Assembly: GCA_016744375.1 (NCBI GenBank)
Contig: JADGEM010000008.1
Coordinates: 1-64,000, forward strand
Length of the DNA: 64,000 bases
Direction: 5' to 3'
Source: Gammaproteobacteria bacterium
GTDB lineage: Bacteria > Pseudomonadota > Gammaproteobacteria > GRL18
Shown here: one piece after another, positions 519-4,727 of the stretch
Layout: each line of letters opens with the position of its first letter
Numbering within the stretch: position 1 is the first letter of the stretch
Notes under the pieces: generated by a model
Told to the model about the DNA's origin: nothing
Database searches by the model: none
The model's input: only the letters and a program-made list of their open reading frames with translations
Made by a program: the position numbers and the translations under genes

Positions 519-731
519 TTATTCCGAAGTTGCTTTTTCTGCTTCTGTTTTAACACCGAACATTTTAAATATTAATGCCGCTGGACAAAAGCCGGTAAAT
601 GAGCTTTGAAATAAATTAAGCCCGACAAAGCCTGTAAACCAGAGCCAGTTCATATTGTGATAAACTGCAAGCAAAACACTCAAGATAATAAAAAAACCTG
701 CCATAGCAGTAATTGATCTTTCTACTGTCAT
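519..731 (-). CDS. DUF2892 (YgaP-type transmembrane) protein
   Basis: This roughly 70-residue inner-membrane protein matches the DUF2892 family: an N-terminal VERSI segment, a hydrophobic helix, an [19 protein letters not shown] segment and a second amphipathic part. The same domain forms the membrane anchor of the rhodanese YgaP, but no rhodanese domain is present here. I chose the start at 731 because AGGAG lies just upstream of that ATG; an in-frame ATG at 752 would add seven residues. It is the last gene of the apparent cytochrome operon, 30 bp after the preceding gene and just before a strong terminator. The conserved Cys in GFCP is present. Its role here is unknown. Confidence 0.8.
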
Positions 732-761
732 ATTAACTCTCCTAATTTCCATCCAAAAAAA

Positions 762-974
762 TTATCTGCTTGTTCGATTTTTCAGATAACTACTTATAAG
801 TATTATCGGCGCCATCAAAAGCAATAATAAACCACCTCCAATAATAGCATGAGGCAGATACCAGATCTCAGGTATTACCCAACTTCCAGCAAGAACCATA
901 CACAGTCCTGCAATAATAAAAACGATTGCCGTATTGACACCATCTTTAAAAGTTTTACAACCTAAAGAAAACAT
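762..974 (-). CDS. Small two-helix membrane protein, Cys-containing paralog B
   Basis: This 70-residue protein has two predicted helices (about 13-32 and 40-62) and begins with an FSLGCKTFKDGV segment that aligns with its neighbour at 977 and with the protein at 228. Unlike those two it lacks the C-terminal Cys-x-His and ends in basic residues. The ATG follows the stop codon of the 977 gene after only two bases (TAAGGATG), so translation is probably coupled. It lies in the minus-strand operon downstream of the NapC-type cytochrome. No known family is recognised; a role tied to the cytochrome module is inferred from position only. Confidence 0.65.
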   Translation of the reverse strand: MFSLGCKTFKDGVNTAIVFIIAGLCMVLAGSWVIPEIWYLPHAIIGGGLLLLLMAPIILISSYLKNRTSR

Positions 975-976
975 CC

Positions 977-1222
977 TTAATGATCACATTTATCCATTCG
1001 TTCTTTAGCTTTTGGTAATACCGATAGTAAAAATGTCGATATTAATATGATTGGTGCAAGCAGCAATAAGATAAAACCCGCAAAGACAACAATGTGATTT
1101 AAATGCCAGAGGTCAGGCATGATATTGGCTCCAGCAAGAACAATTAATACCCCGGTAACAAAAAATATTATTGTGACAATAACACCTTCGCGCATTGTCT
1201 GACAACCTAATGATAATAACAT
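977..1222 (-). CDS. Small two-helix membrane protein, Cys-containing paralog C
   Basis: This 81-residue protein has two strong hydrophobic helices (about 14-33 and 43-68), an N-terminal LSLGCQTMREGV pattern and a C-terminal Cys-Asp-His. It aligns with the products at 762 and 228 over the N-terminal Cys motif and both helices. It starts 34 bp after the NapC-type gene, with a weak GAGAAAG ribosome site. The topology would place both ends on the same side of the membrane, where the N-terminal Cys and terminal Cys-x-His could act together. No family is recognised. The tandem with 762 looks like a local duplication. Confidence 0.7.
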   Translation of the reverse strand: MLLSLGCQTMREGVIVTIIFFVTGVLIVLAGANIMPDLWHLNHIVVFAGFILLLLAPIILISTFLLSVLPKAKERMDKCDH

Positions 1223-1256: not shown

Positions 1257-1889
1257 TTATTGTTCTAATAATTTTTTTGCAGTGCCTTTTTCCAAATCAA
1301 ATTCTTCTTCTATCATGGCATTCCATTTATCCCGTTTAAAGGTTTTTTCATCAGGAATTTTACGATGAACAAGATTATAATGACACTCAATACAGGTTTT
1401 ATCTTTAGCATCTTCCATATGGATTTGTAGAGTATCAGGCCGCTCACCATTAATCGCTTCTTTTACATGGCATTTTTTACATGTGGCTGAATTCCTTTTC
1501 TTAAACCATTTTCGTGCATCAAAGGCGGCTTCCGGCAAATGTAAAGCATTAATAACCGGATCATCATAGTCATGACCAAAGAGCTGCTTGTAGAGATCCT
1601 TACTGCCCATAAAATGATCCCAGGTAGCAGCAAGGACACCTTCTGAAACATGGCAATCGCCACAATCAGCCCTGACACCAGAGCGTGGATTATAGTGTGT
1701 GGAGTTCCGGTAAGGCTCCGCAGCCAGCTCCATGGAGTGACAGGATGTACAAAACTCTTCTGTACTAGTATAGTGATCAAATTCAATTAAAAACAGTATA
1801 AAGCCGACACCCAAAACACCGCCAAAGATAAGTGCAAACAAAACATGCCGGGTAATAAAAGCGGGCAGAAAATGATCAATTTTCATCAT
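1257..1889 (-). CDS. NapC/NrfH/CymA-type tetraheme quinol dehydrogenase
   Basis: This protein has an N-terminal membrane anchor (about residues 14-36) followed by a periplasmic domain with four CxxCH heme sites (Cys47, Cys76, Cys137, Cys166). That is the layout of the NapC/NirT family, which oxidises quinol and passes electrons to periplasmic reductases, or in ammonia oxidisers (cM552, CycB) takes electrons from HAO to quinone. Length (210) is normal. An AAGGA ribosome site lies five bases before the first of two adjacent ATGs. The gene overlaps the octaheme gene by 14 bp, a strong sign of a shared complex. Direction of electron flow cannot be read from the sequence, but the octaheme partner suggests reduction. 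Confidence 0.88.
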   Translation of the reverse strand: MMKIDHFLPAFITRHVLFALIFGGVLGVGFILFLIEFDHYTSTEEFCTSCHSMELAAEPYRNSTHYNPRSGVRADCGDCHVSEGVLAATWDHFMGSKDLYKQLFGHDYDDPVINALHLPEAAFDARKWFKKRNSATCKKCHVKEAINGERPDTLQIHMEDAKDKTCIECHYNLVHRKIPDEKTFKRDKWNAMIEEEFDLEKGTAKKLLEQ

Positions 1890-3318
1890 TGCTTTCCTTG
1901 GTAAAGCCTAATACATTGGTTGCTTCCTGTGTCCTGTTCAACCATTCATGGTATTCAGATTCCAAAATGTGTTCTTTAATAATTTCATCGCCTTTTTTCC
2001 CGGCAAGCTCTTTAACCTGAGGCAAGAATTTTCCGTAGAAATTTGTGGCGACTTCATGCATACCTTCCCACCATGCCATATTTGCACTGCCCATGGCCGC
2101 ACCATGACGTGCACGGGTTCCCTCATTATGCCAAAGTGCCCAGTAAGTGTGTTCAATGGGTTCATCAAAAGCTAAAGGAGTTAATAAATTATTATCGTAT
2201 AAAGCCTGCATTATTGCTTTAGCGGGCTTACCATACTTATCATTATAAAGCTCAACAAAATCATCAAATTGCTGCATTGAATTTTTAGTAAAGCCTTTAC
2301 TATGACATTCCAGACAACTTTTCATCATAGCCTGGCGGCGACGTTTAGGGGAGGCAACCATTTTAACTTTTGCCTCAGTGCCATCCAGCTTTTTGATTGT
2401 TTCACCACGCCTGGGCAATGCTTCTGTGGTTGACAATTCTCTCTTATCTCCATCTTGAAAAATGATCAGATATTGTTTTTCTGAAACAGGTGAATTCAGG
2501 TTCCACGCATCACGCATACCGACGTCATGATTTGATTTCATTTTTCCAGCAGTACCCATGTGACATGTCACACAAGTGGGCGCCGCAGAATAATCTTTTC
2601 CTACAACCCATTGATCACTTTTTAAATTCATCTCATCCCGATGGGCTGCATACAACATTCCATGCTTTGAAGTTTCATAGACGGCTTTATCAGGTGATTC
2701 AATGCCTGTATGACAATGAGTACAGGCGCTGGGTTCTCTTGCCTGGGCTTTTGAAAATTGATGACGACCATGACAGGCAGAGCAAGAGCCCTTTGAACCA
2801 TCCGGGTTAATTCGTCCAATTCCTGTATTTGGCCAGGTTGCAGGATCAAGAGTGCCATCACCACGCATCTTTACTTCAGAACCATGACATTTTGCACAAC
2901 CGGAATTATTCCCGGCCAGACCGCCAAAGTGTTGTGCCAAAAGAGGCATATTGTTTTTTAGAAAAGAGACTGCCTTAACATGCACCGAGCCTTTCTGCTG
3001 TTTATATTCAACTTCATGACAACGACCACAATCTTTAGGTGAAACAATGGTTGCAATAACATGACCTTCGTGTTCTATCGCATCATTATCATCTTCATAG
3101 GCCTGATGACAATCAAGACAATTTACATTGGCTTGTGCATGGGCACTATTTCGCCATTGATGTGTCAAGCCTGATGAAGATTTGCTATGACATTCAACGC
3201 AACTTTTTCCTTCTTCCAAACCCCAGCCTGAGGAATCTAATGTGACCTTTGCCGCCAAAGAAAAATTGGATAAAAACAGAAAAAAGATGCTAATGAAAAA
3301 TAGACGAATGGATATCAT
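1876..3318 (-). CDS. Octaheme cytochrome c, hydroxylamine oxidoreductase (HAO)-like
   Basis: A signal peptide (residues 1-22) precedes eight CxxCH sites (Cys40, 67, 97, 141, 179, 199, 249, 335), the octaheme HAO/OCC layout. After the last heme the segment ending in ARHGAAMGSANMAWWEG resembles the HAO C-terminal region around the tyrosine that cross-links to the catalytic heme in oxidative HAO. From memory that region reads PDYxxWHG, and here Met414 occupies the tyrosine position. Loss of that tyrosine marks the reductive group (epsilon-HAO, nitrite or hydroxylamine to ammonia). Flanking genes are a c554-like pentaheme cytochrome upstream and a NapC-type partner that overlaps. Family is secure; a reductive role is inference. 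Confidence 0.88.
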   Translation of the reverse strand: MISIRLFFISIFFLFLSNFSLAAKVTLDSSGWGLEEGKSCVECHSKSSSGLTHQWRNSAHAQANVNCLDCHQAYEDDNDAIEHEGHVIATIVSPKDCGRCHEVEYKQQKGSVHVKAVSFLKNNMPLLAQHFGGLAGNNSGCAKCHGSEVKMRGDGTLDPATWPNTGIGRINPDGSKGSCSACHGRHQFSKAQAREPSACTHCHTGIESPDKAVYETSKHGMLYAAHRDEMNLKSDQWVVGKDYSAAPTCVTCHMGTAGKMKSNHDVGMRDAWNLNSPVSEKQYLIIFQDGDKRELSTTEALPRRGETIKKLDGTEAKVKMVASPKRRRQAMMKSCLECHSKGFTKNSMQQFDDFVELYNDKYGKPAKAIMQALYDNNLLTPLAFDEPIEHTYWALWHNEGTRARHGAAMGSANMAWWEGMHEVATNFYGKFLPQVKELAGKKGDEIIKEHILESEYHEWLNRTQEATNVLGFTKESNDEN

Positions 3319-3422
3319 ATTATTAATACCTGAAGCAATTAGGATTCATAAGAGAAAATCATGCAGCCCGAAAGAAATCATTTCAGACTGCAAGAGACAG
3401 GGCTCTATTCTCTTTAAAGAGC

Positions 3423-4727
3423 TTAAATAGAGTTTTCTGATGCCGCAATCAGCTTAGGAGCTGTGACATCTGAAGGGATCTTTTTACCGAACTTTTTAAC
3501 CAGACCTGGCCATAAAAGATTGTAGTAAAGTTCCGCACGAACCAGAACAACATCCTTAGCAGGAATGCTATAGTTCATATCTCGGGTTTCAAAAGCCTTT
3601 AAGCGTGTATCATTACCCGTTTTTCTTGCTTTGGGCGGTGCTGTAAGTTTATTATCTGCATCTAATAACTCCAGACGCATATAAGCATCGTTATCACTTT
3701 TCGCCGGGTGTCCCTTTGCATTTTCCCAGACAACCATACCACTCTTATCATAAGCCGTGACTTTCAGATACATATTTCTAAATGGTGCACCTGTAGGCAT
3801 AGTGTGTGGTTGTTTATTTTCCATCGTAACTATTGTCTGAATTTTATCAGCGGATTTTTTACTTTTCATAGAAAAGACCAGTGAACGCTGCAGCATGGGT
3901 TTGCTGTGGCCACCACCAATGCTATGATCAGCAAGACCATTTGATACAGGCATGTGACAAGATAAACAGTCTACCTGAGTCTGACTCTTGGCATATTCAT
4001 CGCCCGTTGCACACAATGGCGCACCATGGGAGTTATTACGCCGATCATGACATCCCATACAGGCGTCTGAAGTCCTTACTTGTTGAGGATTACTTTCCAT
4101 TGGCAATGATGGAATATCTTTGCCATCCATAGTGACTGCCTTGCCCAGGTGTGGATTCGGTTTTTGCTCTTCTTCCCCACCAAAACCAAACTCATCACCG
4201 GCTGAATTTAATGCGGATAGCTGATTATTGGAATTACGTCCCGGCCCCTGAATTTTATCAGCATAGTCATACGACTTGAGTCCCAGGTTTAATTTCCCAT
4301 CAGGTGCGTCAATACCATTGAAGGTTTTGAGAGTATGACAGGCAATACAGTTAACACCTTCAGCATAAGCCGGTTTGGCATCAAGTTTGGTCACCTTGTC
4401 TTTAGCGGCATTAGGGGCATGACATTGCAAACATACCGGGTAATTACCATTTTTCATTTTTACATCATGTTTACCGGGGTCACCAACCACATTTCGATAA
4501 AAGGCACCATGAATCGGATCTTTAAATGCCGTACTATTGGCATGCATTGAACCTTTCCATTGTTTGTAAATTTGTTTATGACAGGTTTGGCATACAGTTG
4601 CTGACACATGATGAATCGAATCATCACTTTTTGTGTTCGCAGAAGCATTATTTGCTAAGAAAAGAAAAGCCATAAGGCCAGTTGAAATACCAGCAAGAAT
4701 TAATGGTATTTTTTGCATAACAGACAT
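3423..4727 (-). CDS. Periplasmic pentaheme cytochrome c (cytochrome c554-like domain)
   Basis: This 434-residue secreted protein has a signal peptide (about 1-30) and five CxxCH sites (Cys46, 99, 127, 223, 254), all in the N-terminal 260 residues. The first site sits in CQTCHKQIYKQWKGSMHA, typical of cytochrome c554 family domains. The remaining 175 residues have no heme site and look like a beta-rich domain. It is the first gene of the cytochrome operon, 104 bp before the octaheme gene. The trio recalls the hao-cycA-cycB arrangement of ammonia oxidisers, with this protein in the electron shuttle position. A substrate-reducing role of its own cannot be excluded. Confidence 0.85.
   Translation of the reverse strand: MSVMQKIPLILAGISTGLMAFLFLANNASANTKSDDSIHHVSATVCQTCHKQIYKQWKGSMHANSTAFKDPIHGAFYRNVVGDPGKHDVKMKNGNYPVCLQCHAPNAAKDKVTKLDAKPAYAEGVNCIACHTLKTFNGIDAPDGKLNLGLKSYDYADKIQGPGRNSNNQLSALNSAGDEFGFGGEEEQKPNPHLGKAVTMDGKDIPSLPMESNPQQVRTSDACMGCHDRRNNSHGAPLCATGDEYAKSQTQVDCLSCHMPVSNGLADHSIGGGHSKPMLQRSLVFSMKSKKSADKIQTIVTMENKQPHTMPTGAPFRNMYLKVTAYDKSGMVVWENAKGHPAKSDNDAYMRLELLDADNKLTAPPKARKTGNDTRLKAFETRDMNYSIPAKDVVLVRAELYYNLLWPGLVKKFGKKIPSDVTAPKLIAASENSI

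Follow-up and report, generated by a model that had tools for sequence, protein, structure and literature searches.

A gammaproteobacterial gene unit for a pentaheme cytochrome c552, a crosslink-free octaheme cytochrome and a NapC-type tetraheme protein: a candidate quinol-fed periplasmic reductase module

Octaheme cytochromes of the hydroxylamine oxidoreductase (HAO) superfamily are known from several systems. In ammonia oxidisers, HAO belongs to a set with cytochromes c554 and cM552. IhOCC, from the archaeon Ignicoccus hospitalis, is said, in the work of Parey in 2016, to reduce nitrite and hydroxylamine. Proteins of the octaheme tetrathionate reductase (OTR) type have been reported to reduce nitrite and tetrathionate, and another study of this type reportedly described nitrite and hydroxylamine reduction. 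In epsilon-Hao, which has a NapC-type quinone partner in the reverse hydroxylamine:ubiquinone redox module (HURM) of Campylobacterota, the crosslinking Tyr is replaced by a Trp that a Met precedes by eight residues (PMC8940962), and the missing Tyr crosslink is held to favour the reducing direction (PMC3701875, PMC8940962). According to a paper on cable bacteria (PMC11976967), cytochrome c552 of Thermochromatium tepidum is a relative of ExtKL and of archaeal nanowire proteins and has no clear role, although one in sulfur metabolism has been suggested. Here we describe a minus-strand unit that encodes a pentaheme cytochrome c552, an octaheme cytochrome and a NapC/NirT-type tetraheme protein in a 64,000-nt stretch of DNA from a marine gammaproteobacterium, the stretch being referred to below as the window (Gammaproteobacteria bacterium, lineage GRL18; assembly GCA_016744375.1, contig JADGEM010000008.1, positions 1-64,000; Table 1). 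We read the unit as a quinol-fed periplasmic reductase module with nitrite, hydroxylamine or nitric oxide (NO) as the leading guess for its substrate, and assign this reading a probability of about 0.5.

The three open reading frames carry 5 + 8 + 4 CxxCH motifs, which gives the 17 heme sites counted in an initial annotation of the DNA. The 14-bp overlap of the octaheme and NapC genes given there (1876-1889) is likewise confirmed when counted from the first napC ATG; from the second (MKIDHF), where the homologues start, it is 11 bp. The trio goes beyond chance, as its members have full-length database matches and as their order and the octaheme/NapC overlap recur in all relatives whose junction is intact.

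The octaheme protein contains PF13447, with CxxCH motifs at residues 40, 67, 97, 141, 179, 199, 249 and 335. IhOCC (4QO5) is its nearest solved structure by sequence (E 8.6e-37) and by profile (E 1.1e-69), and is also the best Foldseek match (E 5.4e-18, TM-score 0.66) of an AlphaFold model (mean pLDDT 76.9) whose underlying alignment excluded two rows from plasmid records. The reducing HAO-like protein of Kuenenia (6H5L) follows in the fold ranking, and true HAOs also come behind IhOCC. In an IQ-TREE phylogeny of 48 octaheme proteins, the window protein groups with 11 relatives in a clade of their own (support 100/100), far from a separate clade (100/100) of eight HAOs, three of which come from genomes bearing ammonia monooxygenase (AMO). 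A placement among oxidative HAOs, which would have spoken against the reductase proposal of the initial annotation, was therefore not seen. In the sister clade (94/92), several octaheme genes are accompanied by genes for a TPR protein and flavocytochrome c sulfide dehydrogenase; the next clade out includes an octaheme paralogue from the window genome itself (contig C104). IhOCC falls on the window protein's side of the tree (86/63), but on a very long branch. The C104 paralogue (L004:4856-8468) adjoins a fusion of a multiheme cytochrome and a cytochrome b of 695 aa, an order kept in many relatives. An NrfA-like identity was rejected for the proteins of the unit, on which PF02335 scores 17.9 bits against a cut-off of 24.1.

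The residues around the putative active site separate this clade from HAO. Numbering follows the HAO of an AMO-bearing genome and is given as in Nitrosomonas europaea. The crosslinking Tyr467 is Tyr in 8 of 8 HAO rows, and is replaced by Trp or a gap in 12 of 12 clade members. The HAO pair Asp267-His268 is Asp-Ser in ten of these twelve and Glu-Ser in the window protein and in G012, while IhOCC has Asp-Val and the sister clades retain Asp-His. In the window protein, M409 precedes W416-W417 by 7-8 residues, eight of the 12 clade members being one residue shorter here; Trp in place of Tyr467 with a preceding Met matches the epsilon-Hao signature. Outside the motifs, seven His are invariant in 29 homologues (60, 83, 113, 186, 219, 264 and 397), which for eight heme motifs fits seven bis-His hemes and one further heme for which no spare His ligand is left. 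This open heme is probably that of the fourth CxxCH and would be the active site. The window protein and IhOCC thus have in common the octaheme fold, the missing crosslink Tyr and the missing distal His (Ser in the former, Val in the latter), and differ in that IhOCC is archaeal, shares about 24% identity in the fold alignment and has Asp where the window protein has Glu.

The pentaheme protein aligns over its full length (residues 18-433; E 9.7e-159) with the cytochrome c552 of PDB entry 5ZE8, which we take to be the low-potential cytochrome (LPC) of T. tepidum. It shares with this type the five CxxCH motifs and full-length homology, the immunoglobulin (Ig)-like domain being assigned by homology only, and is conserved among 15 homologues. 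The initial annotation had called it c554-like; however, cytochrome c554 (1BVB) matches it at E 0.29, CycA of the AMO-bearing genome G329 is 23% identical over 126 residues, and the NCBIfam CycA profile scores 27 bits against a cut-off of 400. CycA is a tetraheme protein of ~211-240 aa, against five hemes and 434 aa here, and the generic PF13435 domain is all that the two have in common; the c554 assignment was therefore replaced by that of a T. tepidum-type c552. In this family, C239 lies outside the heme motifs and is invariant in the 15 homologues, and the related selenoprotein MccSep has Sec at the position of Ala314. Other c552 homologues (L153, L154, L156) adjoin genes for a tetraheme cytochrome, an iron-sulfur protein and an NrfD-like protein, and in L153 also a molybdopterin-type gene, suggesting that the family serves more than one system.

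The tetraheme protein has four CxxCH motifs and matches PF03264 at 133 bits (cut-off 24.1). It stays below all NCBIfam equivalog cut-offs for NapC, TorC and NrfH, which suggests a separate NapC/NirT subfamily. Pairing with a NapC/NrfH-type protein is a mark of the crosslink-free reductive group, and the octaheme protein has such a partner with a conserved gene overlap. A plasmid of the sulfate reducer Desulfosarcina ovata carries a 37%-identical octaheme gene and napC beside norR and genes for NO reductase and hemerythrin. NapC-octaheme pairs occur on plasmids of two sulfate reducers, this one (L162, NZ_AP021877) and one of Desulfobaculum bizertense (L163, NZ_CP090010), and the plasmid with norR and NO reductase is mobilizable.

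The window unit shares the octaheme superfamily and the NapC family with the HAO-c554-cM552 set, but differs from it in octaheme clade, Tyr467, His268, haoB, the protein in the pentaheme position, gene order and AMO. The order does not mirror that of ammonia oxidisers, as had been proposed: the AMO-bearing genome has hao - haoB-like - cycA - cycB, while the window has c552 first and no haoB in the unit, to which the haoB search was confined. The window genome is 94.7% complete, a reserve that applies to every gene absence reported here. As had been expected of this host, amoA, which would also have spoken against the initial reductase proposal, is absent from it, whereas the same query finds matches in 10 of 369 genomes of the class. 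A forward HURM, in which, as in nitrifiers, the octaheme protein would oxidise hydroxylamine and c552 and NapC would convey the electrons to quinone, draws on PF13447 and on a NapC-type quinone partner comparable to cM552. It is nevertheless highly improbable, given an octaheme protein outside the HAO clade (100/100) with neither Tyr467 nor His268, no AMO, no haoB beside the octaheme gene, and a pentaheme protein whose kinship to c554 ends at PF13435. An ammonia-oxidiser hao-cycA-cycB unit was rejected as well, on the combined grounds of the phylogeny, the residues, the partner protein and the missing AMO.

Conservation of the unit was followed in 24 genomes from four genera of the order and in the class sample. 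The octaheme gene of the window clade occurs in ten of the 24, all of which also have the c552 gene (a fragment in G013), and wherever both lie on one contig they are at most 2.5 kb apart on the same strand. Across the class sample, five genomes have an octaheme match that exceeds 60% identity along most of the protein's length, and exactly these five have a c552 match stronger than E 1e-120. In G009, G010, G011, G012, G015 and G170, the last from another family, two further genes lie between the c552 and octaheme genes, one for an OTR-family octaheme protein (TIGR04315, 633 bits; cut-off 375) and one for a cytochrome b561. In G353, which belongs to a third family, the octaheme-NapC and c552-OTR-b561 genes are arranged back to back, and in G016 the OTR/b561 pair comes after NapC and is followed by the rhodoquinone gene rquA (OTR-b561-rquA at L080:6526-9469). 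This pair, found inside the same cluster in most relatives, is missing at the locus in the window genome, G006 and G007, while contig C115 of the window genome carries an OTR homologue (51%) with its own b561. Relatives with intact flanks keep the octaheme/NapC overlap and, behind napC, a gene for an 81-aa membrane protein. The distribution among relatives suggests that the window unit is a remnant of a larger cluster, c552 - OTR - b561 - octaheme - NapC - 81-aa membrane protein; the 104-bp gap between the c552 and octaheme genes has no significant local alignment to the G012 gaps, and hence no scar of a lost OTR/b561 pair. No description of the six-gene cluster was found in open-licence papers, the subscription literature not being searchable. 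It is doubtful, though conceivable, that the cluster represents a periplasmic respiratory system not described before: two different octaheme reductases would have a single pentaheme carrier in common, draw on low-potential quinol, in some hosts rhodoquinol, and act on a substrate other than the classical one of the HAO family. A general link to rhodoquinone was rejected: G016 is the only genome in which rquA directly follows OTR/b561, and the gene is missing from some genomes that have the trio. In the window genome (C102, L157:4107-10245) and several relatives, rquA is part of an operon with genes for a tetraheme cytochrome, DsrO-like and DsrP-like proteins and an SQR-like flavoprotein.

The unit probably extends past napC through genes for small membrane proteins to a terminator-like hairpin at its end (Table 1). 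A further stem-loop after the c552 gene is a probable attenuator or partial terminator, and hairpins of differing sequence occupy the same place in G006, G007 and G012. From their position between the c552 and octaheme genes, c552 would probably be produced in larger amounts than the other products of the unit. Two conserved kinds of two-helix membrane proteins of 70-81 aa flank the end of the unit (977-1222, 762-974 and 228-467 in the window; L076, L078, L079, L080, L082 and L083 in relatives). Most have an N-terminal Cys and a C-terminal C-x-H, possibly metal or heme ligands, and no Pfam family was assigned among those scanned.

Table 1. Features of the c552-octaheme-NapC unit and its surroundings (window coordinates)
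Feature	Position	Strand	Details
Pentaheme cytochrome c552 (T. tepidum low-potential c552 / small pentaheme family), secreted; heme domain and C-terminal Ig-like domain	3423..4727	minus	434 aa, 5 CxxCH, 5ZE8 match
Stem-loop, 12 pairs, T-rich tail, between c552 and octaheme genes	3392-3362	minus	fold z -3.95
Octaheme cytochrome c, IhOCC-like crosslink-free branch; predicted catalytic subunit	1876..3318	minus	480 aa, PF13447, best PDB 4QO5, tree
E207-S208 codons, at the positions of N. europaea HAO Asp267-His268	2695..2700	minus	48-protein alignment
W416-W417 codons, aligned with the crosslinking Tyr467 of HAO	2068..2073	minus	alignment
NapC/NirT tetraheme quinol dehydrogenase, N-terminal membrane anchor	1257..1889 (start 1889 or 1886)	minus	210 aa, 4 CxxCH, PF03264
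Two-helix membrane protein, 81 aa, N-terminal Cys, C-terminal C-x-H	977..1222	minus	behind napC in relatives with intact flanks; no Pfam family
Membrane protein, 70 aa, resembling the 81-aa protein (tandem copy)	762..974	minus	
YgaP-like small membrane protein	519..752	minus	PF11127
Terminator-like hairpin	505-476	minus	

Judged by its genes, the module appears to resemble NapC-plus-octaheme reductases (reverse HURM, IhOCC), what sets it apart being the different pentaheme partner, the larger cluster that may be ancestral and the changed active site. It has in common with the epsilon-Hao system the NapC-type quinone partner, the missing Tyr crosslink and the Trp with preceding Met; in contrast, the window unit adds c552, its relatives add OTR and b561, and the host lacks Hcp and close Nap/Nar enzymes. 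In the reading that we prefer, NapC, anchored in the inner membrane, would take electrons from quinol and pass them to the octaheme protein, either directly or through soluble c552 acting as carrier or buffer. Seven bis-His hemes of the octaheme protein would form a wire to the open heme, where reduction would take place. Lacking the Tyr crosslink, the protein would run in the reducing direction like IhOCC, epsilon-Hao and other crosslink-free HAO-like proteins, a direction that we infer from the absent crosslink and the nearest relatives. Reduction of nitrite, hydroxylamine or NO may serve detoxification or provide an accessory sink for electrons; the guess of a nitrogen substrate draws on the reported activity of IhOCC and on the Desulfosarcina plasmid pair beside norR and NO reductase.

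Several points weigh against this reading. The very long branch of IhOCC in the tree weakens the comparison with it. Ser replaces His268 throughout the clade while the sister clades keep Asp-His, so that the chemistry of the octaheme protein may have changed, and one octaheme sister clade is linked to FccAB. A nitrite reductase, NirS, is already present in the host together with heme-d1 genes. Neither Hcp nor a close NapA or NarG was found in the window genome (the latter two sought with a composite query that had no positive control for that part), which would leave a nitrate-to-ammonium route by reverse HURM incomplete. For these reasons the full reverse-HURM pathway (Nap, HaoA/CycB and Hcp) and a role of the octaheme protein as sole nitrite reductase of the host were both rejected. 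The genome search for nrfA gave no protein over the PF02335 cut-off. In contig C20 of the window genome (L231:9110-13798), the gene after NirS and the heme-d1 genes encodes a protein of 915 aa that has six CxxCH motifs and a NapC-like N-terminus.

The gene neighbourhoods also lend themselves to a sulfur-cycle module, which we regard as a serious though less probable alternative. The octaheme protein, together with c552 (and with OTR and b561 in relatives), would here reduce or interconvert tetrathionate, sulfite, polysulfide or sulfur, or aid sulfide oxidation, and the change of His268 to Ser would reflect a change of substrate, which the lost His fits. Octaheme genes of the sister clade share operons with genes for a TPR protein and FccA/FccB (L202, L205, L207), and the cluster partner in relatives is an octaheme protein of the tetrathionate-reductase family with b561. 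A b561/octaheme pair conserved in purple sulfur bacteria is reported to be sulfide-induced in Allochromatium vinosum (PMC6374484), and a part in sulfur metabolism has been suggested for T. tepidum c552 (PMC11976967). In addition, fccB-fccA and the two next genes (Alvin_1092-1095) rise together on pyrite, Alvin_1095 being taken as the octaheme gene from gene order only. However, IhOCC and its relatives are known as reducers of nitrogen oxides, the homologue on the plasmid has NO reductase genes beside it, OTR-type enzymes reduce nitrite too, and this octaheme branch is not known to act on a sulfur substrate. Of the reductase system put forward in the initial annotation, the multiheme path from quinol to the periplasm ending in a probable reductase is retained, whereas nitrite or hydroxylamine is kept as a candidate substrate, the neighbourhoods pointing at least as much to sulfur.

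The loss of the catalytic His across the clade, the kinship of the c552 family with nanowire-type and ExtKL proteins and the OTR/b561 pair elsewhere in the window genome would also agree with a pure relay, in which the octaheme and pentaheme proteins would be a non-catalytic periplasmic wire to another reductase such as that separate pair. Seven spare conserved His for eight hemes, however, leave one heme open, and the pocket acid is kept (Asp, or Glu in the window protein and G012), so that we consider a relay unlikely.

Whether as the quinol-fed reductase module that we favour or otherwise, the cluster bears on how octaheme cytochromes are classified. They are often annotated as HAO and counted as nitrification genes in metagenomes, and this clade shows that such counts can mislead; two residue marks, Trp for Tyr467 and Ser for His268, tell it from HAO. 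The cluster also gives a genetic setting to T. tepidum-type c552, a family with a known structure and no assigned role, by tying it to two octaheme reductases and NapC. It raises a testable question, namely whether the substrates that these enzymes reduce in sulfur-type bacteria are nitrogen or sulfur compounds.

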